From contig CAIXFE010000008.1 in assembly GCA_903918675.1 (NCBI GenBank), forward strand, positions 1 through 41,423: a stretch of 41,423 bases of DNA, written 5' to 3'. The first letter of the stretch is position 1; every line of letters begins with the position of its first letter. A program made the translations under genes and the position numbers. This DNA comes from an uncultured bacterium (lineage in GTDB: Bacteria; Patescibacteriota; Gracilibacteria; Absconditabacterales; Absconditicoccaceae). Shown piece after piece: positions 4,032 to 34,293 of the stretch. The notes beneath the pieces are model-generated. The model was not told where the DNA came from. It ran no database searches and saw only the letters and a program-made list of their open reading frames with translations.

Positions 4032-4185
4032 GTCATTTGTCATTAGTCATTTGTCATCCGTCATTAGTCATTTGTCATCAGTCATTTGTCATTAGTCATT
4101 TGTCATTTGTCATTAGTCATTTGTCATTTGTCATTAGTCATTTGTCATTTGTCATTAGTCATTTGTCATTAGTCATCCGTCATTC
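4032..4185. repeat. Heptanucleotide tandem array (GTCATTT/GTCATTA, about 22 units)
   Basis: Direct reading; higher-order 21-bp pattern GTCATTT-GTCATTA-GTCATTT. Confidence 0.95.
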
Positions 4186-4212
4186 ATAATTTTAATTAAC
4201 TCATTTCTTTCA

Positions 4213-4677
4213 ATGATTCACAATTTAACAATCCAGGCCCTCTGCGTCGATGCTTCTTGTACGGGCAATCCTGGCGTCATGGAATATAGAGCCGTCGATC
4301 TTCATACATGGAAAGAGCTTTTCCATTCGCCCATCTATCCCATGGGGACAAATAACCTCGGCGAATTCTTGGCTATTTATGATGCTATAAGATATATTGA
4401 GAACCTCGAAAAGAAAAAATCCAAGAACTTGCAACCTGGAACCTGAAACCTGAAACCACGTTTTGAATGTATTTTTTCCGATTCCGAGACAGCCATCGCC
4501 CGAGTAAAATCCAAGAAAATCAAGACCACCCTGCCCTATACCGCTCAGACTAAAGAACTTTTGACGAAAGTCCAAGAAGCCGCCACCCGGCTCAAGACAC
4601 ACGATTTCACGATCCCCATCCGCAAATGGGAGACGGAGATTCGAGGAGAAATACCAGCTGATTTCGATAGGAAGTAG
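4213..4677 (+). CDS. Ribonuclease H-like protein
   Basis: MIHNLTIQALCVDASCTGNPGVMEYRAVD...MGTNNLGEFLAIYDAIRYIE...IFSDSETAIARVK; D-x-S-x-x-GNPG and NN-x-x-E motifs; TGA=Gly gives ORF to TAG 4675-4677. Confidence 0.75.
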
Positions 4678-4684
4678 ATTGCAT

Positions 4685-4795
4685 CATCGTCGTTCCGGTC
4701 TTAAGGCGAAGCTGCAACCGGAACCCACAGTATCAATATAGATTCCGGCTGCAAACCGTAACCCAGCTGAGCTGGACTGACGCGCCGGAATGACA
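4685..4795. repeat. Short palindromic intergenic element (GTCGTTCCGG...CCGGAATGAC ends)
   Basis: Imperfect terminal inverted repeat with internal CCGGAA...TTCCGG and CCAGCTGAGCTGG palindromes. Confidence 0.55.
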
Positions 4796-4966
4796 AGATA
4801 CGACCATCGTTCATCTTTAATCTTTCCTCTTTCATCCATGCTCCGACATGTGCTTAATTGGATAATTATCATCAACTTCTGACATCTCATCTGCTACTGA
4901 ACATATCAGATATTTTTCGTGCTTAAATGAAACAAAAGAGGTCCTGCATTCGCAGAGACCAAATCC

Positions 4967-5077
4967 ATGCCTCTAGATCTTTTCACCAAACGTAGACTCT
5001 TCGCGATAGAGACTATCATCGCCATCTGTGGTCTGTGTATCTATTTGGCGATAATTTACTGAGATAAATTAAGATAA
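4967..5077 (+). CDS. Possible 36-aa membrane protein
   Basis: MPLDLFTKRRLFAIETIIAICGLCIYLAIIYGDKLR with TGA=Gly; one hydrophobic segment. Confidence 0.35.
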
Positions 5078-5176
5078 AATTAGAGCTTAGAACCGAGCCG
5101 CAGGCGAGCTCCGCAAGGCGGGGTTAGTGCTTAGAGCTTAGAGCTTAGATTTGGGGCATCGTTCCACACTCCAACC

Positions 5177-5211
5177 TACTTGATACTTACTACTTTATAC
5201 TTGATACTTTA
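5177..5211. repeat. Heptamer tandem repeat TACTTGA/TACTTAC/TACTTTA x5
   Basis: Direct reading, exact 7-bp period. Confidence 0.9.
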
Positions 5212-5286
5212 TAAAAAATTGCGAATTGAAAATCCAAAAGCAATAGATACAATCCATTGTAAAAATTTTTTATTCAATCGAATGTG

Positions 5287-7596
5287 ATGCAATTAAATCC
5301 CAAATATAGATATATCTGATTGGATTTCGAAACGACTGGCTTGGACGTCACAAAAGATGAACCTATCCAGATCGGGCTTGTCGAGCTTGATTGCGACGGC
5401 AAAGTCATCGACAGCTTCCAATCTCTGATCAAACCGAATAAGAAGACAGATGAACTCAAACATATCGTCGGCTTCATCACCGGCTTGTCTATTTCTGATT
5501 TAGAAAATGCTCCCAGGAGAGAAGCGGTGCTTCCGCAGATAGAAAAGTTTTTCGGAGAAAACACAGTAGTAGTCTGACATAACGTAGGATTTGATATGGA
5601 TTTTTTGAACGCATACTTTCCAGGTCTGGCTTGTGAATGAATCATCGATACCTATAAATTATCCCAATCATTAGTCCATTACGCACCAAGTCATGCATTA
5701 GAAGTCCTAATCCAGCACTTGCAAATCAAGGAGCCAAAATTTAATGAGGTTTTCTTAAAGCTCAATGACAATCAAGCGCACGACAGTGAAAAATCTCATG
5801 ATGCACTCTATGACACCAAGGAGTCATTAGCGATGTTTCTTTTTTTTATAGACTACATTCAAGGTTTAGAAGCCGAATATGGATCATTGCTTACCATCCA
5901 ATCTCAAAGCGAATGATTATTGCCAAAGATTCTCCACATTCCCACACTCCAACACTCCCACACTCCCACCATTCATTTTTCTCCACTTACAAGAATCTCC
6001 CCCCAGCACACTTCTCTAGAAAAATCCAAAGAAACTTTCACTCGAGAAAATCAGAAAAGATATTATATTGGCAACATCGATATCAAAGACTTCATCAAGC
6101 AGCTCGCAGGCAATAAAAATTGTATCCTCGCATTTCAAAACATCCAAAAACTTGATATCGCAAAAAGGATCCTCAATGATGCGGGGATCAAAAATATCGG
6201 ATTTGTGAAAGAGGACCAGACCATCAGCGAAGAGATATTTAAATCATTTCTCAATAAAGGGACATTCACCGAAGAAGAATTTCTCTTCATCTGCAAATAT
6301 CTTTCTCATCTCCAAAAGGGCTATGGAACACTGGATCTGAATAATCCCAGCGATTACAGAATTTATCACACCATCAAAGATACGAGAGCTAAGACTAAAT
6401 ATCCGATCATTCTCGGGACACATCCTGGCATTTACGCAATGATGGAAGAAGAAAATATTTTCCCCGAATATGAAATCTTTTTCTTCGATGTAGAATGGCG
6501 GTACAAGACCTATAATTATTACCTCTCTCGCCCTTGCGACCTGTATTACACATTAAATCTCATCGAATCATTTATCTACAAGCAGAAAGTCCAATCACAA
6601 ATAGAAAGTTGAAAAGTTGGAAAGTGGGAAAGTGGGAAAATTATCGCTTCACACGAGCATACTCCCACCCTCAAACACTCCCACCCTCCAACGCTCCCAC
6701 CCTCCAACGCTCCCACCAGCGAAGCTTTAAATGATTTCTATAACTTCTTTCAAATATTGATCGGTGTCCTCTCAAGTGAGACCAAGAAAATTTTCACCAA
6801 GACGGAGGCCATTTATATTCCTCATGATCCCATCATCGATCATAGCGACTTTTATCAGTCGACATTATTGCGGAAGCAGATCCCTGAATATATGGAGAAG
6901 ATAAGCGACAGTATTAGCCCCGAAGATTTACAAACCTTAGACAAGCAGATCCAGCACATCGATAAAATCTTCAATGGGGTCGTCAACATCAGCAAGAAAA
7001 TGTACAACCAATCCGACTTCTATTTCGTCTACGCAGAAGCACAGAGATATACTGACCGAAAAGAGTTCGTCGAAATATTCAAGAATAACATCTACTTCTT
7101 ATCCAACGGGAATAAGGAATACCCCCAACCTTCAACTCTCAACAGCCAAAGGCTTCAACCTTCAACCACCGAAGGTGTCAACGTTCTCCCAATCCCCAAT
7201 ACACCAATAACCAATAACCAATCCACTAAGATCCCTACCCGAAACCTCTGAAGAGTAGAACAAATCACGACGCACATCCAAAACGCCGACCCTTCCATTC
7301 AGAATATATTTATCTTTTCTCCCAAAAAAGAAGAGTCCAAAAAAATATTTGAAGATCTCTGCCAAAAAGATATACATAAAGACAGACTGTTCTTGGTAGA
7401 AAATATTACGGGGGGCGTAGGGAAGAATGTATTCAAAGCAACAGCCCCTGGCAAGAAGGTCATCATCGGCGGCAATAGCTTCCTTCTCTACCTCTATGCC
7501 AATGGCATCACTATCGACGAAATCATCTTATTCAATAGTAAATGAGGCAGCGAACAATCGATATTGCAGGATATACAACGATATTACCCCAAATAG
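5287..7596 (+). CDS. DnaQ-like DEDDh exonuclease fused to a large helicase-like (possibly DinG-type) C-terminal region
   Basis: 769 aa with TGA=Gly. N-term YIGLDFETTGLD, VVGHNVGFDMDFL, AHDSEKSHDALYDT motifs; C-term 'YPIILGTHPGIYAMMEEE' and 'GGVGKNVFKATAPGKKVIIGGNSFLLYL'. Contains several in-frame short tandem repeat tracts. Confidence 0.7.
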
Positions 7597-7671
7597 TTTA
7601 TAGTTGATAGTTCATAGTTAATAGTTTTGGTGTTTTCTATATCAGCATATTTTAGATAAAAAAACCATCCG

Positions 7672-7706
7672 ACACTCTACACTCTACACTATACACTCTA
7701 CACTAT
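7672..7706. repeat. Heptamer tandem repeat ACACTCT/ACACTAT x5
   Basis: Direct reading. Confidence 0.9.
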
Positions 7707-7738
7707 AAAGTCTTTATCTAATCACCTTGATCACTCAA

Positions 7739-8719
7739 GTGAATAAGAAACGAGTAACTAAATGGAACGTACTAAAATTCGTCCTTGCAACGATAACATT
7801 TTATGCATTGCTGACGATAAATATTTTCAATGTCGGCGAAAAAATTACCCCGACAGAAAAAGATTATCTACGACTAGAGACACCTGAATACACATGAGGA
7901 CAGACTACGGGAGACCTTGCGATCCAGCAGGCTATGCAGGAAATCCAGACAGACACACAGACTCATCCCTCTGCAGGAAATGAGACAGGAGACACTACTG
8001 GCAATATCCAAGATCAGATAAACTTCCAAAAGATATGTAATGCAAATACTTCACTCTGCGACGAGATCACCTTTGATAAACAGCTGACGGACAAGGACAG
8101 ATATCTCTATCTCGCCTCTGTCTTCAAAGTCGTCAATTTCATGGACAACAATATCATTACCAGACAGAAAGCAGAAAATACACTTGCAGATATAGAGATC
8201 AATAAAGATATGGGGGAAAGAAGAGGATATGCCACACATACTTCAGTCATCGTAAACCTCTGAACCATAGCGGACAGATCAGAGTTTCTACAGGTCATAA
8301 GCCACGAATTAGGACATATCTTTGATCTAGGTATCATAGTAGGATCTTCCTCACCCAAAAACACAACATATACTGAATTTGAGAAACCGGTCTTCTGGAG
8401 TGATGACGCATCGCTCAAATATTACGCGGTATCTCGAGACAGCGAAACGATAAGAAAAGCAACTGCGACCAAAAAAGATTTCTGCAGTGGCTATGGAATG
8501 AGTGATCCTTTCGAGGATTTCGCAGAGTGTTTCAATCTCTATCTCCATCATAATGCGCTCTTTAGACAGATCGCCAAAGCCGATTCCGCACTGAAACAAA
8601 AATATAATTTCATCGCAGGATTTTTTGATGGTAAATACATGGATGCGAACAAAGGTGAGATTACACTGGTACAGACTAGCCTTTCTCGAAGGCCATGGGA
8701 CAGCACGAAGATTAACTAA
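7739..8719 (+). CDS. Membrane-anchored zinc metallopeptidase-like protein
   Basis: N-terminal TM segment (FVLATITFYALLTINIF) and VISHELGHIFD (HExxH) motif; start codon uncertain (GTG 7739 suggested). Confidence 0.65.
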
Positions 8720-8728
8720 CAAATCACT

Positions 8729-8824
8729 GTCATTCTGATCCCGACGGGTCGGGAGAAGAATATAATTGTTTTACTGATATCCTTCGACCTTGCCTGCCTT
8801 GGTGGCAGATAAACTCAGGATGAC
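8729..8824. repeat. Short palindromic intergenic element (GTCATTCTGA...TCAGGATGAC)
   Basis: Terminal inverted repeat with one mismatch; internal CCCGAC-GG-GTCGGG hairpin. Confidence 0.6.
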
Positions 8825-8829
8825 ATCAA

Positions 8830-8857
8830 TTCTTAATTTTTAATTCTTAATTCTTAA
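8830..8857. repeat. Heptamer tandem repeat TTCTTAA x4 just upstream of ftsW-like gene
   Basis: Direct reading. Confidence 0.85.
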
Positions 8858-8866
8858 TTCAATTCT

Positions 8867-10003
8867 ATGCCCATCATCATCATATGAGCGCTTCTTACCA
8901 TCTTTGGCTTGCTCGCTATCTATAGCGTAAGTATTTATGAATCATTCACTTTGACCGTTTCACTGATTGCTAAGTGAGCCATGAAATGAGATCCTTCTAA
9001 TTATTTCTATTTTTTCAGGCAGCTAAGAAATGTGGGGATGGCGCTTATCATGGCGGGACTGATTTATTATGTGCCGATCAAATTTTTCCAGAAAGAAAGA
9101 AATATGACGATCATAGCTATTATCCTGATGGCATTACAATTAGCTGTATTCATCCCAGGGATCGGCGTGACGCTCAATGGTGCAAGAGGATGGATCAATG
9201 TCCCTCTTCTCCCAAGTATCCAACCGGCAGAATTTTTCAAATTGGGATATGTATTATTTCTCGGTTCATGGCTACTCAGAAAACGCAATACCATGAATGA
9301 CAAAAAATTCTTCACTTCATTCATCGTGCTCAATGCCATCCTCTTTTTCATCTTCTTACTGATCCCTGATCTTGGGACGGTTATGATCCTGGGAATCGTA
9401 TGATTGATCATGTGTCGATATATGTGAGCTAAGTTCAAACACATTCTCCTGATACTTTTTGGCGGCCTGTTGGCCGGCATTGTGGTCTGAGCCGTGGCAG
9501 GGACTGTAAGCGACAGATTTAGTTATATCCAGAAGAGATTTACGTACTTTATCAGCTCAAGTTCAGATCCTCAGGCGAAACAGATCTGATGGCAAAATCA
9601 AGAAGCTTTGCTGGCTATCTGAGGATGATGATTTCGATGAAAATGATACGGGAAATGATTACAGAAATTCTGATATATCCCAGAAGCACAAAGTGACTTC
9701 GTATTTTCAGCATTTTCCGAAGAGATTGGATTCGTAGGAAACCTAGTTATCCTCTGACTCTATTTCTATCTCGGCTATTACTTTCTATCCAATCTCAGTA
9801 AGATCAGAGATGACTATAAAAAAGTAGTAGGAGTCTGAATCCTCTCCCTCGTTCTGGTTCAAGTTTTCGTAAACATCGGCGTCAACACAGAGATCCTGCC
9901 AAACACAGGTCTTACGCTCCCTTTCATCAGTTACTGAGGAACAGCACTGATGGTAAATCTGATGGAGATCGTTATCTTGTATAAAATTATTAAGGACAAG
10001 TAG
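8867..10003 (+). CDS. ftsW: SEDS-family protein FtsW/RodA
   Basis: 378 aa with about 17 TGA=Gly; AIGGGGFRGKGYGKGLQKFGYIPEAQSDFVFSAFSEEIGFVG and NTGLTLPFISYGGTALMVNL; ends TAG. Confidence 0.9.
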
Positions 10004-10148
10004 AAATATTTAAACACTGGTCAAACAGTGGTTAAACAGTAGATGAACAGTAGTTAAACAGTAACACAATAAGACAACCGTTTATCACGAACGAAGGTGC
10101 GTATTTATCAACTGTTTATCGCGAAGCGTTTATCCTCTATCCAACACA

Positions 10149-11015
10149 ATGACTATCCAAATAGACAAAAACAACCTCCTCACAATTAGCAATCCAAGCA
10201 TCCCTCAAACCAAAGAGTACACCTACACTGTAGGATGATATAAATTTTCCGATTTTGATAAATGAATCATTGTGCTCCATAAAAAGGATTGGAAAATTAT
10301 CAATTTGAAAAATCTTGGTGATGGTATGAGTGTAGTTTATATAAGAGGTTGAAACGTTGAAGCGTTGAAACGTTGAAACGTTAGCAACATCGAAAATGCA
10401 CTTCAATTTTTTGAAGGGTTTGATGAAAACACAGGAGAGAAATATTACTTCATCCCTGGGCTCGGAGAAGCACAACAACAAGAAAAAAATGAGATGCTTC
10501 AAAAATTATGAACCGCATATACTATACATAAGACAGAGAAAGGCATGAAAGTAGTCTGAATTCAAACCACAGATAAATCCGCATCCGACGCGATCAGTCT
10601 TTTGTTTGGTCTGCTGTGTGTCTACGGAAAATTTGACGGGAAAAACGGAGAACTCTCTTCCATAAAGATTCAATTACCTCTCTTCTGACAATATTTAGCG
10701 CAGCAAGAAAACTTAGATCAGATGATTAAATCCCTGCAAGATGAATGAATCTTCCTCAAGGCCGATAAGCTCCCAAATAAGAATGGAATCATTTATCAGA
10801 TCAGTAGCAACGATTATGAGCTTCTAGAAATATTTGCCAAACGATACGAAGGAGTTGAAAAATTCTCCAGGATCACTAAACGTGAATTCACTGAGGATAT
10901 GAAGACGAGACTCATAGAGTTTATCCAATCAAATCCAGAAATCCCTTCAGCAGGCAAATCTGAAGTTCTGGAAAAAATAAAAAAAGGGACAATAAAACTC
11001 CTAATAAAAAACTAA
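10149..11015 (+). CDS. Hypothetical protein (288 aa)
   Basis: MTIQIDKNNLLTISNPSIPQTKEYTYTVGGYKF... continuous with TGA=Gly to TAA; contains an in-frame GTTGAAAC 8-bp repeat. Confidence 0.7.
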
Positions 11016-11098
11016 AATAAATACTTCAAAACAAACCTCCATCATTATTCACTTGTCCTGTAAAGGATTATTCATTCTTAATTATTCATTCCCTTCAA

Positions 11099-11169
11099 GG
11101 GGCGTTAGTGTAGTGGTAACACAGCAGTCTTCGGAACTGCCCTCAGGGGTTCGAATCCCTTACGCCCTG
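11099..11169 (+). tRNA. tRNA-Arg (anticodon UCG)
   Basis: GGGGCGT/ACGCCCT acceptor, GTGT/ACAC D-stem, GCAGT-CTTCGGA-ACTGC anticodon arm, AGGGG-TTCGAAT-CCCTT T-arm; CCA not encoded. Confidence 0.75.
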
Positions 11170-11198
11170 AATTAACATTCCATAAAACATTTAAAATA

Positions 11199-11334
11199 TT
11201 GGTGTAGTGGCGAGCGAAGCGAAGACTACCAACGGTAGTCAGGTCCAGCTCAGCTGGATAACATGACGGTCTTCGGAACCGCAGTCGGAGGTTTGCTATC
11301 CCGTAGAACTACGGGGCAATCCCTTCACGCCCTG
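11199..11334 (+). pseudogene. Degenerate tRNA-like copy with palindromic insertions in D- and T-loop regions
   Basis: GGTGTAGTGG ... GACTACC-AAC-GGTAGTC and CCAGCTCAGCTGG inserts, CGGT-CTTCGGA-ACCG anticodon arm, CCCGTAG-AA-CTACGGG in the T-arm region, CCCTTCACGCCCT 3' end. Confidence 0.6.
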
Positions 11335-11364
11335 AATTAACATTCCATAAAACATTTAAAATAT

Positions 11365-11456
11365 TGGTGTAGTGGCGAGCGAAGCGAAGTCCAGCTTAGC
11401 TGGATAACACAGCAGTCTTCGGAACTGCCCTCAGGGGTTCGAATCCCTTACGCCCT
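11365..11456 (+). pseudogene. Second degenerate tRNA-Arg-like copy with D-loop insertion
   Basis: GGTGTAGTGG-[CGAGCGAAGCGAAGTCCAGCTTAGCTGGA]-TAACACAGCAGTCTTCGGAACTGCCCTCAGGGGTTCGAATCCCTTACGCCCT; identical to the 11099 tRNA from the D-loop on; 5' acceptor strand does not pair. Confidence 0.65.
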
Positions 11457-11556
11457 GAATTAACATTCCATAAAACATTTAAAATATTGGTGTAGTGGCG
11501 ACCAACGGGAGTCCCGTAGAAATGACGATCCAAATTATTTTGTAAATCATAAAAGA

Positions 11557-12224
11557 AGGGTCTATTCTGAAGTTCGGGAATTATTTACTTAGCCTGTCCT
11601 CCTTTTTCAAAGGAGGGGGTACCCTTTAGGGTGGAGGATTTTCATAAACCTAATTGTAATTCTCTGTCCTGAATTTGGAGTTCTAAATCAAGCATCACTC
11701 AATCTAGTTGATAATATATCTGATCGTTTGTATATCTAATTATTTTGATTCCTACGCTTCATAAGAAGCGAGTTCTTTCTTCATCATATTCGCCCTGCCA
11801 ATCATGACTTTCACCATCTATCTCTATTCACAACTTCAATTTATTACAATAGAAATCTATAATGTAGTTTCATAATAGTTTTTGTCTTAGAAATCTATAT
11901 CATGTAGCATCTTTTCTCAACGCTAAATTCCATATTTTTCATTCGGCTTCTGTCATGGTATATTGATTCCTATTAGCTCTAGCATATTCTTTATTTTTGT
12001 GATTATATGGTATGATCATGGATGAGAAAAATATATAAATACCGAAATTATATAATTTTAATCACTACTTTCCACTAAAAATCTCCCTGTCCGGAGTTTA
12101 TCCCGGTAATTCACCGGGAGACTTCCTAAAAAATCCCTCTCCCCCTCCGGGGTTTCTCCCTTTGCAAAGGGAGACAGTAAAGATGCAAAGGGGGACAGAA
12201 TTCCCAGACATGCGAATAGACCCT
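11557..12224. mobile_element. TIR-bounded element carrying a DUF559 endonuclease gene; 6-bp TSD AAAAGA
   Basis: Left end AGGGTCTATTC-N8-GGGAATT, right end AATTCCC-N8-GAATAGACCCT (18/26 inverted identity over the outer 26 bp); inner CTGTCC...CAAAGGGAG similarity; AAAAGA at 11551-11556 and 12225-12230. Confidence 0.7.
11585..12019 (-). CDS. DUF559 / Vsr-like endonuclease domain protein
   Basis: MIIPYNHKNKEYARANRNQYTMTEAEGKIWNLALRKDATGYRFLRQKLLGNYIIDFYCNKLKLGIEIDGESHDWQGEYDEERTRFLGSVGIKIIRYTNDQI with TGA=Gly. Confidence 0.85.
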
Positions 12225-12256
12225 AAAAGAATAATATCTCTTTTGAAACTATAAAA

Positions 12257-13432
12257 TTAAATCGGCAGATCAAGGGAAGTATGCTCTTGGTCCAGTTTTA
12301 TTGTTTCCTCCAGCTGGTTTTTTGCTTCCCTATATATTTCATTTTCATCCGACATTTTCTTTTTCTCCATCTGTATTAATTCGGATGCATTTTTTGCATC
12401 TTGTGACAGAAATCATCTCTTAATAGTGGCATAAATAGTCGATAGACGGAGAGTTTGATACATAGAGAAAAGATCATTATTTAACGTATTCTGTAGCTCG
12501 TCTATCTTAATTTTAATTTCATTTTGTATCTTTTCATCCTGAGATGCACTATCTCATAAGACTTTATTCAACAAGGCAGTAATCTTTATTTGATATGTAA
12601 TCGATACTGTAGCTATCTCTTCTCCTATGGACTGTAGCAAGACATCGGCATCAGAAGTATATTCGGAAGGCAAACCAGACGTATGGGTGTCCTCAATTTT
12701 TTGTAGGTCACCTTCCATATCAGAGATAATCACTGATATATCACCATACACTGATATCATTATTTGATTCACGTGATAGTGGACATCAGCCTTGTCCTTA
12801 CTATCTTTAATTTCCTGTGCCGCTTCGATCTGCTTTTGCACCACTAGTTTCAATCAAGATAGGAAATCTTTTATCCAACTTTTTTTGGAATATTCTTTTT
12901 TATACAGCCAAATATCTTCAGCTATTTGTTTCAGGTCTTCTAGTGGGATATCGCGCAAACTAATATCCCTAAGGATTCATTTGTAAGTATGCCCTGATAA
13001 GTCCTTAATCTGTAATTTTCCCTCCATGTACTCTTTCACACTAGGCAAAGGAGCTGATTTTTTATCCATTTTTCAGTGTTTGATTTTAGGAGATTGAGAT
13101 CTCGAAGATTTATCGGAATCATGATCTCTTGGATGTTTAATATCTTCTGGATGTTCCTCAAGGTCTTCTTGTTGTTCCTCAAGGTCTTCTTGTTGTTCCT
13201 CAAGGTCTTCTTGTTGTTCCTCAAGGTCTTCTTGTTGTTCCTCAAGGTCTTCTTGTTGTTCCTCAAGGGGGTCAAATCATACTCCTGCCTCAATCAGTGC
13301 TGCATGTAACGCTGGATTCTCTATCCCCAAAATTTTATCATGAGCACCTCATAATTCTGCCTCCTCATTTTCCCCTGGGTCTCCATCCTCTAACAGACCA
13401 TCATCTAAATTAAAATCTTCAGCTCCCATCAT
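12257..13432 (-). CDS. Acidic/coiled hypothetical protein with heptapeptide repeat EEQQEDL x5
   Basis: 391 aa (TGA=Gly) from ATG ATG to TAA; repeat encoded by a 21-bp tandem repeat. Confidence 0.75.
13154..13268. repeat. 21-bp tandem repeat (5 full copies plus partial) in coding sequence
   Basis: TTCCTCAAGGTCTTCTTGTTG on + strand. Confidence 0.95.
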
Positions 13433-13888: not shown

Positions 13889-13905
13889 TCACATAACACT
13901 AAAAG

Positions 13906-18773: not shown

Positions 18774-19973
18774 TTATTTCTTACGACTTTTAGCAACCTT
18801 CGTCGATTTTTGGCTATCTTTAGCAAGTTTCTTTTCTTTCCACTTCTCAACCAATGTGTGTAGATACACGATATTATGCAAACTCAACAAAATCCCACTC
18901 AGCATTTCTTTTTCTCTATTGAGATGATGCAGGTAGGCCTTGGTGAAATTCTTGCACGTATAGCAACCGCAATTTTTGGTCAAGGGACTAAGATCGTCAG
19001 TATATTTCGATTGAGAAATTTTGATATTTCATTTATCGCTAAAAGCCTCTCCATGCCTACCCAATCTCGTCGGCAAAACACAATCAAACATATCGAAGCC
19101 TTGCTCTATCGCATGACGGATGTCCTCCGGCGTCCCGACTCCCATCAGATATCTTGGCTTATCAACTGGTAATTGTGGCCCTACAAATTCGACGACATTG
19201 CGGACAAGCGATTTACTTTCTCCTACACTCACTCATCAGACAGCGATCCCATCCCGCGCATACTCGGAAAGAAAATCGATCGACTTCTGTCTGAGATCTA
19301 AATGTGTTCCTCATTGCACGATAGGAAACAGCACTCCGCGAGCCTTCTTATACTTCGGATCAAAATGATCGAATGCTCTCTTGGCCCATCTATGCGTCAT
19401 CTCCATTTGCTTCTCGACATCTTTCTTCTCAGCTTGACCAGGCGAACACACATCCAGCACCATCATAATATCCGATCACAAATCACACTGGATATCCACG
19501 ACATTCTCAGGGGTAAACATGTGTTTGGATCCATCATACGGAGACCTAAATTTAACTCACTCTTCAGTCAGTTTTATTTTTACATCATGACCTCAAGTAT
19601 TCATCTGTCATTCGTCATTAGTCATTAGTCATTTGGCTTTTCATAAGCCAAGAGAAAACACTTGAAACCCTCCACTATCCGTCAAAATCAATCCATCCCA
19701 ATGCTCGAACTTATGTAATCCTCAAGCTTTTTTAATTAATTTTTCTCCAGGGCGAAGATACAGATGGAATGTATTCGCCAATATCAAATTGATCATCGGC
19801 AAATCACCGATATACTTAGGATCTTGGAGCATATCTAGGACCATTCACTTGATGGTAGCCTTGGTCCCGACTGGCATAAACACCGGCGTCGTGAGCGTCA
19901 CCCCATTGAGCGTAATCTCTCAAACTCTTGCATTCCCTGCTTGTTTGAGTATCTTAAATCTGAGTTTAGACAT
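18774..19973 (-). CDS. tgt: tRNA-guanine transglycosylase (queuine tRNA-ribosyltransferase)
   Basis: LTDSGGFQVFSLG, VQGGTHLDLR, YLMGVGTPEDI, DMFDCVLPTRLGRHG, C-terminal CxCxxC..H zinc motif; contains an in-frame heptamer repeat at 19607-19634. Confidence 0.95.
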
Positions 19974-21036: not shown

Positions 21037-21042
21037 TTTCAT

Positions 21043-21708: not shown

Positions 21709-21793
21709 TCACCAAATTCCTTACGCCTAAAGTTTACCCGCCACAGCGGGCCTTAAGCTTTGAGCCAATCTTTCATCTTTAATCTTTCATCCA

Positions 21794-23013: not shown

Positions 23014-23083
23014 CTATATGTCTAATGCCTTAGGCCAACGACCAATCTTTCATCTTTCCTCTTTAATCTTCCATCTAAACCCC

Positions 23084-24336: not shown

Positions 24337-25128
24337 CTATTTCAGTACCACTCCCTTTCCCTTGCTTGTCCATTCTTTCCACTTCGCATATAATATTGCT
24401 CTATATTGATATCCATATTGGCAGACACTAAACAAGGTGGTAGTCACGATATACAGACCGACTGCAGCATTCAGAGTATACACAAATGAGCCGATCATGA
24501 CGACCAAAAATACATTCATAAATCACATCATCTTGCCCATGTCAGGAGTTTTCTGTCCGGGAATATTTGGAGTAGCTGGTTTTGCTAGTGTAGTAAACTT
24601 TGTTTGTAAGTAGGTCAACACCGCTGCGATGATCGTCAATGCAATATTCTTAGTAGCAAGAAGATCCATACCCAGGAAATGATGATTGATACTCTTAGGA
24701 TCAAGATATTGAGCTCCGAAGCCATGGAAAAAGCTATATAACCATCATGCAGGGATCGTATTTGCTGTGATCCTTCTGACTACTCGATACAATCAGATGA
24801 ATACAGGGATCTGGATCAGCATCATAAGACAGCCTTTGAACGCTCATTTCCCATCAGACTTAAATACCTTCATCGTTTCTTCTGATAATTTCTTGGGATC
24901 GTCTTTGTATTTTTCTTGGATGGCATTCAGCTTTGGTTGGAGATCGGCCATACCTTTCTGCATATCATTGCCTGCTAAAGTCTGTTTGATCATCAAAGTC
25001 CTGATAACCAAGGTCAGTAGGATGATCGCTATTCATAGGTTCCCTCAGAATATCGCGAGAAACATGACCAGGAGATTGAATATCGGACGGTATAAAATCT
25101 CAGTAAATAATAGTGAAAAAATGTTCAT
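24337..25128 (-). CDS. yidC: Membrane protein insertase YidC
   Basis: IAIILLTLVIRTLMIKQTLAGNDMQKGMADLQPKLNAIQEKYKDDPKKLSEETMKVFK...MMLIQIPVFIGLYRVV...AAVGLYIVTTTLFSVCQ. Confidence 0.9.
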
Positions 25129-25308
25129 AGTTTTATTTATACAAGTAAAAATCCTTTATTGAATTATTGTAATGGTCACAGGTTGTTGCACATCGTTGCA
25201 GATTGGCACAGATTATTTTTTTAGCTTTTTAAAAAACGTAAATTAACAATCTGAGACCCCCTGCAACCATTCTTCAGATTTTTCAGGATATTTTTCAGAT
25301 TCTTCAGC

Positions 25309-25863
25309 TTATACTTTCATCACCTCTTCACTCTTATTCTTCACATGCTCATCTATTTTTTCATTCATTCATTTGACCATGGCATCGATATCTTTTTCAT
25401 TTCTATTCTTTTCATCTTCACCGATCTCTTTCGCATCGAAAATAGTCTTATTGTCTTTCATGGCTTCTTGTCTAGCGACTCTGATGCGTCACTTGATCTC
25501 TTCTCCCATCGCTTTGACTTGCTTGGTGATCTCTAGCCTTCTCTCTTGAGTCAATGCGGGAATTTTGATAAGGATATAGCTACCTTCATTTTGAGGAGCA
25601 AGACCGATATTAGCGTCATAGATAGCTTTCTCGATATGTTTCAATTCATTTTTATCCCGTGGTTCAATCTTTACGGTCTGCCCATCCATCAAAGTTACAT
25701 GAGCAATTTGAGGGATCTTCATAGGCCCGTAAGAAGCTTCTACTTGGATATTTTCTACCAATCATGCTGACGCTCTTCCGATCTGCAAAGCTTTCAATTC
25801 TCATTCGAAGTACGCAATCGCCTTATCCATCTGTTGTTTGTACGGAGTCATGTCCATTGTCAT
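25309..25863 (-). CDS. frr: Ribosome recycling factor
   Basis: ELKALQIGRASAGLVENIQVEASYGPMKIPQIAHVTLMDGQTVKIEP...RRLEITKQVKAMGEEIKGRIRVARQEAMK. Confidence 0.95.
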
Positions 25864-26169
25864 AAGCAAATTATGAAATAAAGTATAAGTAATAATAATG
25901 GAATTTACAAATTTCTAAATTTAAAATTTACAAAACAATTTTTGAATGTCCAAATATCTAAATTTCCAAAACTTAATCTTGCGCTACTGTTCGACTACCG
26001 TTTATCTACTGTTTGACAATTCCTCTAAGGTCTAAGTTCCAAGCTCTAAGATCCTTCAGCCTTAAGCCTTAAGCTTTAAGCTACACACTCCTGTGTGAAT
26101 AATACAAAAAGGGACAATCTTTGCAACTGGAAAAACACAACCTTCAACTTTCAACCTTCAACTTTCAAC

Positions 26170-26187
26170 CCCCGCAGTACTGCGGGG
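26170..26187. repeat. 18-bp perfect palindrome CCCCGCAGTACTGCGGGG at the end of a TTCAACY heptamer repeat
   Basis: Direct reading. Confidence 0.95.
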
Positions 26188-26195
26188 TCAACCTT

Positions 26196-26723
26196 CTATC
26201 CTAAAACGATTCCATCCACGCTCATATCATGCTCCGACATCGGGATGTCATCTACAAGCTGACACGTGAAACACAGTCAGATTTTTTTTACCTTAGTATG
26301 CTGTGCCAGGAAAGTATCATAATATCCGTATCCTCTGCCCAATCTTTTACCATCAGCAGTGAAAGCCAGTCCCGGAACCAAAATAATATCGACAGCCCCA
26401 AGGTAAGGAATAGGATCTTGTATCGTTGGCTCGCCCAATTTTCAGCGACGAATCTTGACGTCAGTGGTATAGAGAAACGGCTCCAGAATATTTACATCTA
26501 CCTGTGGGACAATGACCGTCTTGCCACGAGCGAGGAGCAGATCAATAAATTGTTGTATCTGCGGTTCAGATTTCATCGGCAAAAACACAGACCAGACCTG
26601 ATATTGATCTATCATGGGCATCAGCTGTTGGATGATCTTTTCTGAGGAATGTAAAATTTGCTGACTCTTCATCTCGGTCAGTTTTGCTTTGACGTACGTT
26701 CTCATTTCTTGCTTAGCTTGCAT
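26196..26723 (-). CDS. 5-formyltetrahydrofolate cyclo-ligase
   Basis: [26 protein letters not shown] motif; N-terminal region consistent. Confidence 0.85.
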
Positions 26724-26948
26724 AAGAAAAATATAGGGAAATGAGATGATAAATCAAATTGTAAAATGCATCTTTGTGCATAATTCATCTTCCAAATGTC
26801 ATAAGTTTAAGTAGTATAAAATGATTTAAAATTCCAAAATTATTTTGGTATAATTAGGAATAATTTGTACACCCGCCTGCGTCGGGCAGGTTTGTAAATT
26901 ATTATGTTCATCTGTATAACTTGTTTTACTTTCAATCAGTAAAAAAAT

Positions 26949-27392
26949 ATGCATCATCTCGCCATCATGAATCCCAAGCGAAAGCTGATCCCAAAAATCC
27001 TTTCTGGCGAGAAGAAGATAGAATCCAGACGATATCTGATGAAAGTGGCTCCTCGGGATAAAGTGCACCCGGGTGATATTATTTATTTCAAAGATGCAGG
27101 CAAGCCAGTGACACTCCAAGCCGAAGTAGAGAAAGTCCTGCAATACGATCATTACAGCGACCAGCAATTGCAAGAAATCATTACAAAGTACTGATGACCC
27201 TGAGGGATCGCTTTTCATGGGGCTCTTACTTGAGCTTATACGCGGGCAAAGCCCAAGAAATATTGTATCCTCATGTTCTTGAAGAATCCGCAAAAGATTA
27301 AACCCTTTGCAATCGATAAGAAATGATATTGAAGCGCCTGCGCTTGGATCACATTGCCAGATATTGAGAAGATTAGGAGCTTAGAAGTTTAG
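26949..27392 (+). CDS. ASCH-domain (PUA-like) protein
   Basis: MHHLAIMNPKRKLIPKILSGEKKIESRRYLMKVAPRDKVHPGDIIYFKDAGKPVTLQAEVEKVLQY. Confidence 0.7.
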
Positions 27393-27426
27393 GTGCTTAG
27401 GCCTAACCATCTAACCCGCTAATAAA

Positions 27427-28104
27427 CTATTCAATCTTCAATGGATTGAAATTCGTATCATAATCATAGTAATCTTCATGTTCGATCTTTTTCAATTTGT
27501 GAATAATGACATAGGTAAGTGGCGTAAAAAGTACTTCGACACCAACCTTGAAAATATAATTGGAGACCATGATAGCGATGACCATGTCAGTACTAAAGAC
27601 ACCCGAAAATGCGATCATGATAAAAATTACCGTATCAAAAAGTTCTCCCACTAGAGTCGATCAGATCGTCCTTACTCGTAATTTTTTCCCTTTCATCCAG
27701 ATCTTGATCTTGGCCAAGATATATGAATTGCTAAATTCTCATGCAAAATATGCGATCAAACTCGCCAAAACGATCCTTGGAGTCAATCATAAGATATGCT
27801 GATAATCTTGCTGGTAAGGTCGATTGGTTGCGGAAGGAAGCCGACCGACGATCATGATCACTGCCGCCATCAGAAAGATAGCTCCGAAGCCCATCCAGAT
27901 AATTTTTCTGCTCTGTCTATATCCATACACCTCAGTCATAACGTCGCCAAAAATATAACTGAGCGGGAAGAGAATTGTCCCTCCATCAAAGGTAAAAAAT
28001 CACAGATTTAAAATCTTGGTCGATGCAATATTGGAGATCATCAGGACTGCGACGAATGCAACAGCGATTAGCGTGATCAACTTATAATTTCTCTGCTTAT
28101 CCAT
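27427..28104 (-). CDS. YhhQ-family queuosine precursor transporter (DUF165/VUT)
   Basis: LMISNIASTKILNLGFFTFDGGTILFPLSYIFGDVMTEVYGYRQSRKIIWMGF...GEFSNSYILAKIK...GSTLVGELFDTVIFIMIAF. Confidence 0.85.
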
Positions 28105-28259
28105 AGGGAAATATTTTTACTAAAAGTTTTTTTCTGAACGCATTCAGGGTTTGGTCTCGAACGAAATCTGAACGTAGTTATACGGAATCGTTATGCAAAA
28201 CATACACATTCTAGCCAGATATAAAGATGTAAAACCTTACAATATCCGTATTTGCTCGT

Positions 28260-28303
28260 ACTCCACCGCCATCCAAAATTTAAAATATTCAAGGTGGTGG
28301 AGT
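28260..28303. repeat. Inverted repeat ACTCCACC...GGTGGAGT
   Basis: 8-bp perfect arms, 28-nt spacer. Confidence 0.6.
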
Positions 28304-28455
28304 ATAAATGGAGGGGGAATACAAGAAGTTCACAACCTTTGGAAATAACATACTCTCAGAACAAACCATTACATTAATCTCCAACAAAATTTAGTTGACT
28401 TTTAGCAGGTAATAATTATTATGCTCTTACTCTTTTATTCCTTACAAAGGCTAAA

Positions 28456-28926
28456 ATGGGCAAGTGACCAATAAATTTCAAAGACAAAAAAGCAATGATT
28501 GTATGAGAGAAGACTATTTTGATTGACACAAATAGCCCTGAAACGAATGGAGAAAAAGAAGTACGTCTGATCACAAATGAATTAAAAAATCTGGGCTTCA
28601 ATGAAGATAATATCACTGTAGAAAACGGAGATCATTCAGAGGCATATAAGAATATTATAGAAAAGGTAGCGGGAGGGATTGCTCTTGTAATCTTTTCAAG
28701 TTCAGTCAAACTGGGAGAAGCAAATTTTACCGCTAATTGAATGGATACCTACTTGGAGAAAAGACCAAAGATCGTTATTCTTACAGAAAATTCCGGATCC
28801 AAAGATGAAGTAGTGGATAGCTATTTACCTACACCATTCGACTCAGAAACATTTCAAGAAACAGTCACAAACTTATTCCAAGAAACTCCATCCGAAACAG
28901 AACAAGAAAAGGAGGTGTCTGATTAA
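28456..28926 (+). CDS. Receiver-like (pseudo-REC) small protein 1
   Basis: GIALVIFSSSVKLGEANFTANGMDTYLEKRPKIVILTENSGSKDEVVDSYLPTPFDSETFQETVTNLFQETP; response-regulator-like pattern, no clear phospho-acceptor Asp. Confidence 0.5.
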
Positions 28927-28978
28927 CTTTTTACTATAACTGATTTCATCAAAGCCTTTTTACTTTCTGTAAAAAAAC

Positions 28979-29506
28979 ATGTCTGTAGAAAAAGCCATAA
29001 ACGATAAACACGTAGTAATAACAGTTCCAGAGCCAAGCATACTTCGGTGAAGAAACACATTCGATAGGGAAAATGAAAATGAATTTGAAGAATCAATGAT
29101 CCAAGAAATGCTATTGAGCATAGGAATCCCTAATGAGAATATTCATCACCAAAAATACGAACATAACCAACAATATATGGAATGGGTTAAAAACGTAAAA
29201 GCAGATATCGCACTCGCTATTTTTACATGATGATTAGATAGCCGATATTTTAGAACCGGATGACTTTTTGACCAAGTCAGACAACAAAAAAATAACATAA
29301 AAATAATTTTAATTGGAGATAAAAAATATGAAAATTATCAATCTCATAAAACAAAGAAGCGAAATATGATAGATACCTACATTTATACACCCTATGAGCC
29401 AGAACAATTGAAAAAAATCATTTTAGAATCACTTCAAGAAACTCCCGCTTCAGAAACAAATGCAAGCAGCTCAGCCTCTGATAACCGGCTTAACATAAGG
29501 GCTTAA
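28979..29506 (+). CDS. Receiver-like (pseudo-REC) small protein 2
   Basis: DIALAIFTGGLDSRYFRTGGLFDQVRQQKNNIKIILIGDKKYENYQ...MIDTYIYTPYEPEQLKKIILESLQETP; C-terminal pattern shared with protein 1. Confidence 0.5.
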
Positions 29507-29625
29507 TGGGGGATTACATCAACGACAGACATCTCTCCATTTCAGATAAAATTGCTTCAGAAAACGATACTAGAGTTACTCTTAAAAACTCATTAAAAGG
29601 ATTCATATTTATCCTCTGAGAATAA
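29506..29625 (+). CDS. Possible 39-aa ORF overlapping the previous stop (TAATG)
   Basis: MGDYINDRHLSISDKIASENDTRVTLKNSLKGFIFILGE. Confidence 0.35.
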
Positions 29626-29629
29626 CAAT

Positions 29630-30178
29630 ATGATCAATAAATCAGCAGCCGTGATAGGACGACAGACAGATTTCACAATTGACGAACTTAGAAGATTTAC
29701 GATAGAACAAAAATCTAAAAATCATAAGCCAATAGAAGAAAACGAAGGGAAACTTTATCATATCAAAAAAGAGCTCGCTTTAATAGTTGAGGGACTAGAA
29801 CAAATCGGACTCACAGATATTGCTATGAATAAAATTTCTACTCAATGAACCGAGCTAAGAGACATCCTTATGCACGAAACACAACCGAAAGACCTCATAA
29901 TTTTTACGGGTGAAAAAATTCAAAACCACATACATACCTTGGGTATAGCCGAGAAGATAAAAAGGATAAGAGAAGAAACGGACATTGTTATGATCGGCGA
30001 TTATGATTGGCAAAATTATGACAAGGTAAATCGGGATCTCTTCATGAAAAAACCTTTCACAATAAAAGATTTTAAAGGTAGAATCTTAAATTTGTTGCTG
30101 CAAAGAAACGACTTCAACCCATTAGAAAAATTAAAAATAAGATTATGATTGGAAAAAATAAGGCTGGGATTAGGATAA
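29630..30178 (+). CDS. Receiver-like (pseudo-REC) protein 3
   Basis: DLIIFTGEKIQNHIHTLGIAEKIKRIREETDIVMIGDYDWQNYDKVNRDLFMKKPFTIKDFKGRILNLL (KPF...L pattern typical of REC beta5). Confidence 0.55.
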
Positions 30179-30310
30179 AGCTACGAGGATTTTCATAAGA
30201 CCATCTCTCCATTGCAATTCATTAGGATTTCCTTATTATAATCTCGTTATATCAAGCGATACCTAAAAGCGTTCTCACTCTTCTGTCCCTTCGGTATTTG
30301 AGACCCGATA

Positions 30311-30421
30311 AAACCCCGACACTTTTTGAGGGGGTTTACGGAGTCGAAATTATACCGGCGATTTTTGACACATAAAGTACAAGCGTAAGCGAAGTAATTT
30401 ATGATTTCAAAAACAGCCGGT
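30311..30421. other. Candidate structured RNA or palindromic element: two consecutive hairpins
   Basis: AAACCCC...GGGGTTT (30311-30337) and a long interrupted stem ACCGGC/GCCGGT, TTTTTG/CAAAAA, CATAAA/TTTATG (30354-30421). Confidence 0.5.
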
Positions 30422-30512
30422 GCGTTACACTTGGACAATAAAGAGTGTACCAGATAAGATCACTATGGACGAGGAATTATGAGAGCTTTTTTTGTTTAAT
30501 GAAAAAAATGAT

Positions 30513-30640
30513 GTCCCCCCTTTAAGGGACTGAAAGGAATCCCGCTAGGGAAAAGGGGGTGGCCGAAGGCCGGGGGATTTACTCAATAAAATCTCCCACC
30601 ACTCCGTGGTCCCCCCTCTTTAGATAAAGAGGGAACTCAA
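30513..30640. repeat. CCCCCCTTTAAGGG...-type intergenic repeat, related in style to the ends of the DUF559 element
   Basis: Palindromic G/C-rich segments GTCCCCCCTTT...GGTCCCCCCTCTTTAGATAAAGAGGG. Confidence 0.55.
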
Positions 30641-30733
30641 TCAGAAAATCTTCTTCACTGTTATCCGTTATCCGGTATCTGTTATCTAATTTATCATTTA
30701 TCCTGTAAAGAACTTTATCATTTTATCATTCCC

Positions 30734-32593
30734 ATGGAATTCAAAGACCTCTGACTCTCCGAGTCAACACTCAATGCACTGACTAAAAAATGATTTATCA
30801 CTCCCTCACCTATCCAGGCGCAGATCATTCCTTTGCTGATGAAAGGAGAGAAAAACGTGATCGGACAAGCTGAAACAGGCTCAGGCAAGACTGCCGCTTT
30901 TGGGATTCCGCTCATAGAAAAACTCCAGCCAAACAAAGGTATCCAGGCACTTATCCTCGCACCTACAAGAGAACTTGCAGTGCAAATTGCTGCAGAGATT
31001 GATTCTTTCCAATGAATAGGAAATAAGAGACTCCGCATCACAACCATCTACGGGAAGCAATCCTACACGATACAGATGCAGGCGCTCAAAAGAGGTGTCG
31101 ATATCGTAGTCGGGACGCCAGGAAGGATCATGGATCATCTCGATAGAGGCACGCTCAATCTTAAGAATTTGGAATATTTCATCCTCGATGAAGCAGATGA
31201 GATGCTGGATATGGGGTTTGAAGAAGATATCCAGAAAATATTTAAGCAGACCAACGATCACAGAAAAGTGCTCCTCTTCTCTGCTACGATGTCCAGAGAT
31301 ATCCTGAGTATCGCTAAGAAATATATCGGAGAATACGACTTAGTCTCAGTGAAAAATGAGCAAGCTACCGTCGCGCTGACAGAGCAAAGTTTCGTGGAAG
31401 TGCAAGAAAGAGATAAGTTTGAGACCTTGCGCAGGATCGTAGATATGGCTCCTGATTTCTATGGGATCGTATTTTGTCATACCAAGAATGATGTCGATCT
31501 CGTCACTTCTAAGCTCGTCGATAAGTGATATAATGCCGAGGCATTGCACGGTGATCTCCAGCAGAGACAGAGAGAAAGAGTATTGAAGTTATTCAAAGAT
31601 AAAAAAGTTACCATCCTCATTGCTACCGATGTCGCAGCAAGAGGGATCGATGTAGATGATGTGACGCATGTCATCAATTATTCACTTCCACAAAATGCAG
31701 AAAAGTACATCCATAGAGTTGGCAGGACTGGGAGAGCTGGCAAGGCAGGGATCGCGATCACCTTCGTAACACCGAGAGAATATAGACAGATGTCAGCCAT
31801 CAAAGCGATCACCAAAACCGATATCAAGAAAGGGATGATCCCTAAGGTCACAGATATTATCCAGACCAAAAAAGATAACCTAAAGACTGACATCCAGTGA
31901 GCGATCGGTGGGGAAAAATATAAGGATTTCCTTCCTATCGCGGATTTCCTTCTAGAGAATAACGACGCTCGCGAGGTCATTGGAGCACTTTTGAAGATCC
32001 ACTACGAACATGATTTCTCTCAGAAAGATTACTCAGAGATCAGTGATGTTCGTTCCGCAACAGGATCTAGAGCATGATCAGGACAAGCGAGACTCTTCAT
32101 CGCAGTGGGAAAATGACTAGGCTATACGCCTCGCTCGCTCCTAGAATTGATAGAGAAAGAAGCCGGCGTCGCAAGTAATGGAGTGAATGATATGAGGATC
32201 ATGGAAGACTTTTCTTTCATCACGGTAAGTAGTCCTGACGCCGAAAGGATCATCGACGCCTTCATCATGAAGACCATCAATGGCAAAAAATCCATCGTCA
32301 GTAGAGCGAAAGAAGAAAGCAGATGAGGCGGCAGTTTTAGAAAACCTTACGGAGACAGACCGAGAACCTATGGGAATGACAGACCAAGGACCTATGGAGG
32401 CGACAAACCAAGAACTTATGGTGGAGATAAGCCTAGGACATACGGAGGAGACAAACCTAGAACATACTGAAGCGATAGACCAAGAACATCATCCTACGGC
32501 CCTAAGAAAAGCTTTGACGATAAGCCTAGGACAAGTAGCTATAGCGACAAAAAACCATGATTTAAGAGCAGTAGAGCTAGACCAGAACGATAA
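30734..32593 (+). CDS. DEAD-box RNA helicase with DbpA-like RNA-binding fold and RPRTYGGDK repeat tail
   Basis: [90 protein letters not shown]=Gly; ends TAA. Confidence 0.95.
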
Positions 32594-32621
32594 TATCGAA
32601 CAAATAATTTCATTGCAGAAA

Positions 32622-32645
32622 AGGAGCCTCAATGGCTTCTTTTTC
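32622..32645 (+). terminator. Rho-independent terminator
   Basis: AGGAGCC-TCAAT-GGCTTCT plus T-tract. Confidence 0.7.
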
Positions 32646-32880
32646 GTATAAACATATTGCACCCGACAATGGATATTGTCGGACTAGGAAACAGTCACTT
32701 AAAAACAATCATCCCGATTATTACGATTGAAATTTTGAGGGAAATGGGTAGAAAGTTATTCGTATATTGGTGTATTAGTATATTGGGAGGGAAATTCCCG
32801 GACCAATAACAAATAACCAATGCACCATACAAAAATAAGCCAATCCATAATCGACAATTTAACCTTTAAAAGTAGCCAAT

Positions 32881-34293
32881 ATGTCCTTAGCCAATAAATA
32901 CCGTCCACAAACCTTCGATGAGATTATCGGACAAGAACACGTTACCGAGATCCTCAAAGCTCAGATGAAAAGCAACAAACAGCAGCATCATAATTTTCTC
33001 CTTTTCTGACCAAGAGGGACAGGAAAGACAACTGCTGCCAGAATTATAGCCAAGGCAATAAATTGTCTGAACCTCCAAGATGGAAATCCTTGCAACAAGT
33101 GTATCAATTGCCAAACGATCAATGAAGGCAAGACCTTGGATTACATAGAGATCGATGCAGCTTCTCATACCGGAGTAGACAACATCAGGGAAGAAATTTT
33201 GGACAAAGCATCCTATCCGCCAGCAAGTTTAAAAAAGAAAATATACGTGATAGATGAGGTGCACATGCTCAGTAAAGGTGCGTTCAACGCCCTCCTCAAA
33301 ACGATCGAAGAACCCAGAAATAATGTCTGTTTTATCCTGGCCACGACCGAGCTCCATAAGGTTCCCGAGACCATTATTTCCCGCTGCCAGGTCTTCAATT
33401 TCAAGAAGGTAAACAACCAAGAGATGACGAAACATCTGGAAAATATCTGCACGCAGGAAGGACTGAAACATAGTCATACTGCTCTAGAAGTGATTTCAAA
33501 AATATCTGAAGGCTGTGTACGTGACGCGGTCAAATATGTAGACCAAGTAAGTGTACTGGGGGACGTAAATGAAGAACATATCACGAAATTTCTTGGTGTC
33601 GCTCCAGAAAGTATGATAGAAAATTTTCTGCAACTGATCAAAGAAGGAGATAAGACAAAGATATTTACGCAGATAGATGACATCCATAATCAAGGAGTCG
33701 ATCTGCACAATTTCGCCAAACAAGTCCTCATGTATATGGATCAACACTTCTTGGAAGACATCGATTTCCTTTCTCAAGTCTCAGAAGCATTCACAGAGAT
33801 CATCAGCAATATCAGATATTATCCCTATCCGACGATTGTGTACAAGATCGCAATAAATAAACATCTTGATTGAATTAAGAATGAAGGATGAAGAATTAAG
33901 AATGAAAAAAATAAAGAGGAAAATCTAAGGTCTAAGGTCCAAGATTTAAAGCCTACTACGCCAGCATCGACTGACCAAAGCCAACCCACTACGAGTGAAA
34001 CAAAGCTCGAAGACCAGACGCAACCTGATAACGACGACCTCCTCCAGCAAATATTAGATAGTTTGGAAGAAGGCTCCTTCAAAAACAATCTCCAAGATCA
34101 GATCGTGATCGAAGAAGTGACTGATGCCAAAGTGAAAATCATCGCCATCAATAAAATAGCAGAAATGATGCTCAAGAAGCCAGAAAACATCACCATCATC
34201 CAGAAGGTTTTTTCAGAAACTCTTGGCAGAGATGTGATGTTGGAAGTAAAATTTGAAAACAAGGAAAACTATTTCGCCAGGAAATTGTGATAA
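32881..34293 (+). CDS. dnaX: DNA polymerase III subunit gamma/tau
   Basis: MSLANKYRPQTFDEIIGQEHV, LLFGPRGTGKTTAARIIAKA (first G=TGA), CNKCINC zinc motif, EIDAASHTGVDNIREI-like, VIDEVHMLSKGAFNALLKTIEEP. Confidence 0.95.

Follow-up and report, generated by a model that had tools for sequence, protein, structure and literature searches.

Why does a single contig carry so many tandem repeats of unrelated sequence that share a step of seven or eight bases, and why do a number of them end just before a start codon? The contig (CAIXFE010000008.1, or C8; its full length of 41,423 nucleotides (nt) was analysed and is called the window below) belongs to a single draft assembly, labelled G000, of 1.39 Mb in 123 contigs with 5% contamination, of which 302,116 bp (22% of the genome, coding fraction 0.88) were sampled. 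Long open reading frames (ORFs) stay open when TGA is read as glycine (NCBI table 25), and these frames, together with Patescibacteria-type relatives, suggest a bacterium of the Gracilibacteria/Absconditabacteria type that uses code 25. Its lineage has lost the anti-Shine-Dalgarno (anti-SD) core of the 16S rRNA and has a positional U-rich element before its genes, and we found a subset of the heptamer and octamer arrays to be locked to start codons; this combination is the new part, the excess of period 7 itself being already known from other bacteria (MacGregor 2015, PMC4679880, and Mrazek 2007 as cited there). As the best explanation, to which we assign a probability of roughly 0.45, we propose that these repeats have grown by slippage, are tolerated where they are harmless and, in sizeable part, are kept as leaders for SD-independent initiation.

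Period and abundance of the arrays

Tracts were detected with Tandem Repeats Finder (TRF) in the window and elsewhere in the genome, a second, stricter detector was applied to the 302,116 bp, and gene families were assigned with Pfam. Third-order Markov sequences served as the null for counts in the window, and random intergenic placement and shuffles for other comparisons. Detector thresholds, motif set and distance bins were fixed during exploration of these same data, after several other ideas, and the congeners provide a partly independent check on those choices.

The window holds 18 arrays of period 7 and 10 of period 8, against 0.13 of each in the Markov sequences, and every tract listed in the original prediction was recovered by TRF to within a few bases. 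Across 260,693 bp elsewhere in the genome, TRF reports 72 period-7 and 48 period-8 arrays, every other period reaching 13 at most; the stricter detector counts 82 and 37, with no more than 5 for each of the other periods from 4 to 12. The genome-wide excess at period 7 that had been predicted is therefore present inside and outside the window, whereas the octamers, described earlier as some 8-bp relatives, are about half as common as the heptamers and not just a few. Array lengths bunch at a few units plus 4–6 bases (27, 32–33 and 39–41 bp), with ~4.5 copies being typical. In small samples, the congeners display the same period excess in a weaker form; it is close to zero in most of the family's remaining genera and patchy outside the family.

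Arrays occur both between genes and inside ORFs, as had been claimed, and 75 of 119 are intergenic despite the high coding fraction. In this location, and in the dominance of period 7 among periods of 5–11 nt over shuffled controls, they resemble the heptanucleotide simple sequence repeats, for which period 7 is described as dominating the 5–11 nt repeat class of prokaryotes, with units that differ between genomes, a mostly intergenic location and a proposed origin by polymerase slippage (Mrazek 2007, as cited in PMC4679880 and PMC4692102). Compared with that class as those papers relate it, the present arrays differ in the large share of period 8, in being short and imperfect, in forming some hairpin arms and in having a start-locked subset.

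Arrays locked to start codons

The 3′ ends of 20 arrays of the genome lie 5–9 nt upstream of an ATG, where random intergenic placement predicts 2.6, and the congeners show 15 against 0.9 expected. The lock is sharp, in that only one array ends at 10–14 nt and the exact distances peak at 5–8 nt. A 7/8-nt array is found in 36 of 227 leaders here and in 27 of 275 leaders of the congeners, while dinucleotide-shuffled leaders yield ~1; periods 7 and 8 are the only ones enriched in leaders, the others being absent. On the sense strand, T makes up 49% of the leader arrays and G 3%, and T exceeds A in 34 of 43 of them, versus 11 of 37 arrays that follow stop codons. The leader arrays of the window and, last, its longest array, all detected by TRF, are:

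8828–8860, plus strand: (AATTCTT)n, 6 nt before ATG 8867 of an FtsW/RodA-family gene (Pfam PF01098)
21768–21791, plus strand: (ATCTTTM)n, 2 nt before ATG 21794 of a HAD-family gene (Pfam HAD)
23045–23064, plus strand: (ATCTTTC)n, 19 nt before ATG 23084, with looser copies continuing to ~23076
30714–30730, plus strand: (TTTATCAT)2, 3 nt before ATG 30734 of a DEAD-box helicase (Pfam DEAD)
34340–34357, plus strand: (CATTTTAT)2, 6 nt before ATG 34364
37214–37244, minus strand: sense (ATTTTATC)n, 9 nt before ATG 37204 of the minus-strand ORF 36929–37204
38750–38770, plus strand: (ATCTTTY)n, 13 nt before ATG 38784
4031–4183, plus strand: (GTCATTN)22, the longest array, 29 nt before ATG 4213, with 21-bp higher-order copies inside

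At orthologous genes the leader retains an array even where the unit differs. Before dnaX, whose start is anchored by homology, arrays end 8, 8 and 8 nt from the ATG in three congeners, with units of the ATTATTC type in two and TTAGTNN in the other; the array of G002, (TAATTCG)8, lies farther from the ATG. Before an AMMECR1-like gene, the start of which is likewise anchored by homology, the octamers CGTTTNAN or CATTTNAT end 4, 4, 5 and 4 nt from the start in four species.

These observations bear on the reading that neutral slippage is sufficient, which we consider somewhat unlikely. According to it, a 7–8 nt bias of the replication machinery acts on AT-rich seeds, among which U-rich low-complexity leaders would be good ones, and selection merely removes the arrays that break genes. 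The scarcity of arrays in shuffled leaders, the sharpness of the start-lock and the retention of arrays with different units in orthologous leaders speak against it, although seeding in leaders followed by neutral growth is compatible with all three. It also agrees with the presence of arrays in the middle of gaps and in coding loops, with the drift of units along single arrays, and with the heptamer excess in unrelated bacteria, for which a polymerase-footprint slippage model is cited (Mrazek 2007, as cited in PMC4679880 and PMC4692102).

Two further candidate signals were rejected. Arrays lie 0–9 nt from stop codons in 18 cases against 4.6 expected, and 31 of 39 stop-adjacent arrays have TAA or TAG within the unit, so that the array itself probably sets the end of the ORF. 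A coupling hairpin between a post-stop arm and a leader arm was discarded, the complementarity being like that of permuted pairs here (p 0.64) and marginal in the congeners (p 0.03). Cyanobacterial arrays show no sharp lock to the ATG but do show a stop lock; their heptamer arrays (loci L099–L177) lie 0–5 nt after stop codons in 24 cases against 2.8 expected.

Candidate start signals in a family that has mostly lost the anti-SD core

The tail of the 16S rRNA reads GACCACCAYTCTAACC in place of the usual GGATCACCTCCTTA, and SD-like motifs are found in 3% of leaders. CCUCC is absent from the 16S tail of G000, of 5 congeners and of 10 of the 11 other genera of the family with a readable tail; it is present in 9 of 16 readable genomes from other families of the class. 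Across the family, the core has eroded in different ways (CCACCATTC, CCACCTCTC, CCATTATCC and CACTTCCC, among others), and one genus, G016, has kept it (L245–L250, L257–L267). In the loss of CCUCC and the near absence of SD motifs this genome resembles the SD-scarce organisms without CCUCC described in PMC10783764, which include two SR1 genomes; the portions of that report available to us describe no replacement element, whereas here there are both a positional UUUUA element and start-locked arrays.

The U-rich element (TTTTA, TTTAT, TTTTT or TTTAC starting at −28 to −18) precedes 57–81% of genes, compared with 4–13% for positions further upstream. Its UUUUA/UUUAU-type form lies ~22 nt before the start, as upstream of 20075, 25869 (minus strand) and 32881. 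In operon-internal genes, where the element falls inside the upstream coding sequence, the figures are 64% versus 7%; being just as pronounced there, it points to a signal of translation and not of transcription. The positional peak characterizes the family, the other families of the class having none, and we regard the element as a candidate replacement for the SD sequence in this family.

We envisage that repeats with a 7–8 bp step probably arise through replication slippage and persist in harmless sites, such as intergenic gaps, protein loops and linkers. The U-rich, G-poor arrays that end 5–9 nt before the ATG would extend the leader that carries the −22 element and thereby provide a larger unstructured landing site for the 30S subunit. 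The probable reader of this site would be ribosomal protein S1, with its OB folds touching one 7–8 nt step after another; a gene with three tandem S1 domains is present at G000:C38:15536-16258, and equivalents are listed for several congeners. A further subset of arrays would serve as the arms of long bulged hairpins. Slippage with a stride of 7–8 nt is known in kind, and the step itself is not accounted for by this explanation. In its most explicit form, which we consider unlikely as a whole, the family lost the anti-SD and replaced it with the UUUUA element ~22 nt before the start, and one genus extends this leader with slippage-grown 7/8-nt arrays acting as multi-copy landing sites for the tandem OB folds of S1; the sequence of the arrays would be free to drift as long as U-richness and spacing are maintained.

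Several results weigh against a role of the arrays in initiation. Only about a fifth of them are start-locked, and the others need just slippage and tolerance. The −22 element occurs in 40 of 62 array leaders and in 288 of 438 other leaders, that is, no more often where there is an array; the arrays are thus not simply copies of it but add to it. The other genera of the family mostly lack the anti-SD core and yet have no array leaders (0 of 98 leaders), so that arrays are dispensable for SD-independent initiation. Gene starts, moreover, are mostly predicted as the first ATG.

Unit structure and recurrence

Substitutions cluster on few phases of the unit (271 invariant phases versus 213 expected, with 53 of 55 arrays exceeding expectation), and the resulting units have the form of a hexamer plus N, such as GTCATTN. 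The genome has many units, and one-mismatch relatives of these are also enriched as repeats. Identical units recur across loci in 73 pairs for period 7 and 19 for period 8, compared with 15 and 2 in composition-matched, letter-shuffled units. The original prediction had seen in the shared period a common generating mechanism rather than descent of one repeat. The first half is in keeping with the shared period across differing sequences, genome-wide and in the congeners; the second is too simple, because units recur beyond shuffles and some arrays lie within dispersed elements of ~90–200 bp.

The GTCATTN unit recurs on contigs C5, C41, C75, C82, C90, C94 and others, and is also found in cyanobacteria, Bacteroidota, Verrucomicrobiota, Chloroflexota and Planctomycetota. 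Horizontal spread was considered for this unit and set aside: in unbiased surveys it was no commoner than the reversed pattern used as control, with 5/286 for each in Patescibacteria (minus this genome) and 4/247 against 13/247 in Bacteroidota (minus the centre genome), and convergence therefore suffices. A unit spectrum in common with cyanobacteria was likewise not upheld, as the match is weak once the GTCATT family is removed (8 versus 3.8 expected; 28 of 1000 shuffles match).

Array pairs and dispersed hairpin elements

Arrays are often paired less than 100 bp apart (19 gaps versus 4.0 expected) and have inverted partners in excess (18 versus 4.6 by chance), about a quarter of them having a pairing partner. 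Some pairs fold as long stems in which helices of 5–6 bp are separated by loops of 1–2 nt with a 7-nt step (fold z of −4.3 at L015:11855-11950, −4.5 at L015:8440-8535, −5.4 at L028:15100-15200, −4.5 at L017:415-520 and −5.1 at L018:3365-3470); other array pairs fold no better than shuffled sequence. Dispersed elements of the sampled genome fall into families F1–F7. In F1, an octamer arm, (TATTGGTG)n, pairs with a heptamer arm, (CCAATAA)n, which may explain why periods 7 and 8 occur together. The array pairs and dispersed elements of the window, all on the plus strand, are:

32757–32825: F1 hairpin element, (TATTGGTR)n, GC-rich apical stem, (CCAATAA)n, upstream of dnaX (fold z −2.8); 8 more approximate copies elsewhere in the sampled 22%
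6604–6718: octamer arrays (GAAAGTKG)n and (CTCCMACC)n, a bulged hairpin within the coding sequence of an exonuclease-domain gene (fold z −3.6)
5030–5149: dispersed element, GC-rich hairpin plus (GCTTAGA)n, with close copies at L022:6830-6940 and 8660-8790
7593–7626: (ATAGTTN)n at the 3′ end of the exonuclease-domain gene, with 7672–7704 as its approximate inverted partner (fold z only −0.9)
7672–7704: (ACACTMT)n in the gap that separates the exonuclease-domain gene from the next ORF; approximate inverted partner of the array above
26053–26169: two heptamer arrays between genes, (CCTTAAG)n and (CAACYTT)n, which do not pair clearly (z 0.25)

F5 is a dispersed, non-tandem element of ~80–90 bp with CCCGACGGGTCGGG and CTGCCTTGGTGGCAG palindromes (window 8740–8834; L020:980-1080; L025:16090-16200). 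Leader hairpins near the ATG, with a left arm (GTTGAA..)n, an apex CCTCCTTGGTGGAGG and a right arm (CGTTTAGT)n, were seen at L018:5317-5413 and L019:723-809.

The array pairs, the inverted partners, the folds with z below −4 and the families F1–F7 are what would be expected if small hairpin elements, mobile or structured and akin to miniature inverted-repeat transposable elements or repetitive extragenic palindromic sequences, had spread in the genome with the arrays as their arms, solitary arrays being decayed halves. We regard this as improbable, given that most arrays have no partner and that family members share units and not outer ends. Y1 transposases number 0–3 per genome in nine genomes, with none in several array-bearing species, and were dismissed as a driver since their presence does not track those species. 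The sole Y1-family match in G000 (L232, G000:C4:16991-17254) covers profile positions 28–121 only.

An improbable reading as promoter boxes

Between a −10 box and the start of transcription lie the same 5–9 nt that separate the arrays from the ATG. The arrays might then be repeated −10-like boxes of nearly leaderless transcripts, and in some organisms anti-SD loss is indeed described as going together with leaderless mRNAs (PMC10783764). This is very improbable, for the −22 element loses no strength where the neighbouring gene upstream extends over it, the best −35/−10 pairs peak 30–39 nt before the ATG, and a conserved promoter-like pair, TTGAAAAATT-N-TAACTACACT, lies upstream of the dnaX array in several congeners.

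Arrays inside genes

The genic arrays are tolerated insertions at permissive loops and linkers, a tolerance helped by code 25, in which a TGA within an array is sense. The other repeats of the window that lie in genes, as detected by TRF, are:

19607–19633, minus strand: (AATGACN)n in tgt, in the variable loop between FSLGL and KLTE (Pfam TGT)
33872–33943, plus strand: (GAATKAA)n and (TCTAAGG)n in the DnaX linker, which is poorly conserved and lies beyond the Pfam DnaX domains
4426–4457, plus strand: (ACCTGRA)n in ORF 4213–4677, earlier called rnhA-like (no Pfam match)
10348–10382, plus strand: octamer (GTTGAAAC)n in ORF 10149–11015
13143–13268, minus strand: 21-bp array encoding EEQQEDL (no Pfam family)

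The tgt array is in frame solely because TGA is sense. Among nine species, the same loop carries differing short inserts in most (GTCATTN in G000 and G007, GC-rich palindromes in G004 and G005, a 10-mer in G008 and CAAAGTC in G006), and all nine frames are open. The GC-rich palindromic repeats, CCCCCCAACCCCCCTTTATCAAGCGGGGG and CCTCCTCACCTCCCCTTATCAAGGGAGG, are in frame within tgt of two congeners (L090, L095). The array-bearing linker of dnaX fails to align in most congeners, and the orthologous frames are open. The EEQQEDL array, which had been counted in as a 3×7 unit, stands apart: its three 7-nt thirds differ, and it is hence not a heptamer DNA repeat but an ordinary 21-bp unit encoding a protein repeat of seven residues. 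Several repeats of 21–24 bp are also present in a long Thr/Asn-rich protein (25–2223) with a C-terminal L,D-transpeptidase (YkuD) domain.

The suggestion that such arrays are contingency loci, with phase variation driven by single units whose gain or loss would change frame or expression, has in its favour that 7 mod 3 = 1 and that some arrays lie within coding sequences, but it is not supported and seems very unlikely, as most arrays are intergenic, the genic ones occupy linkers or loops of housekeeping genes (tgt, dnaX, the exonuclease-domain gene) and not surface genes, orthologous tgt and dnaX frames are open, and imperfect arrays of mostly ~4.5 copies are poor substrates for fast slippage.

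Relation to known repeats and significance

A close precedent is the TAACTGA system of marine Beggiatoaceae, in which heptamer direct repeats lie directly upstream of start codons, are patchy across phyla and have been suggested to act in translation (MacGregor 2015, PMC4679880). The leader arrays found here likewise precede start codons by no more than tens of nt, in the sense direction. There, however, one fixed unit is used per genome and near relatives are rare as repeats, whereas here there are dozens of unit families, together with a U-rich sense strand, a fixed spacing and an rRNA without the anti-SD. The GGGNATC and GGGGAYT repeats of Xanthomonas and Nostoc are heptamers with one variable position, and orthologous gaps retain them with varying length and sequence (PMC4692102); our arrays share the variable position and the retention of repeats with changing sequence at orthologous sites but are G-poor, while those are G-rich quadruplex formers. 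The tandem repeats of Bacillus, in the part of PMC8161180 available to us, have a constant length with a sequence that varies between families in one genome, as here, but units of 52 or 20–21 nt in place of 7/8.

For decades heptamer repeats have been recorded in bacteria with no agreement on what they do. In the present genus, whose anti-SD has eroded, they stand at a fixed distance from the starts, with consistent strand and composition, and the question of why the period is 7 becomes a testable one about how ribosomes find starts without Shine-Dalgarno pairing. The UUUUA element is offered as a candidate replacement signal in a family of the candidate phyla radiation.

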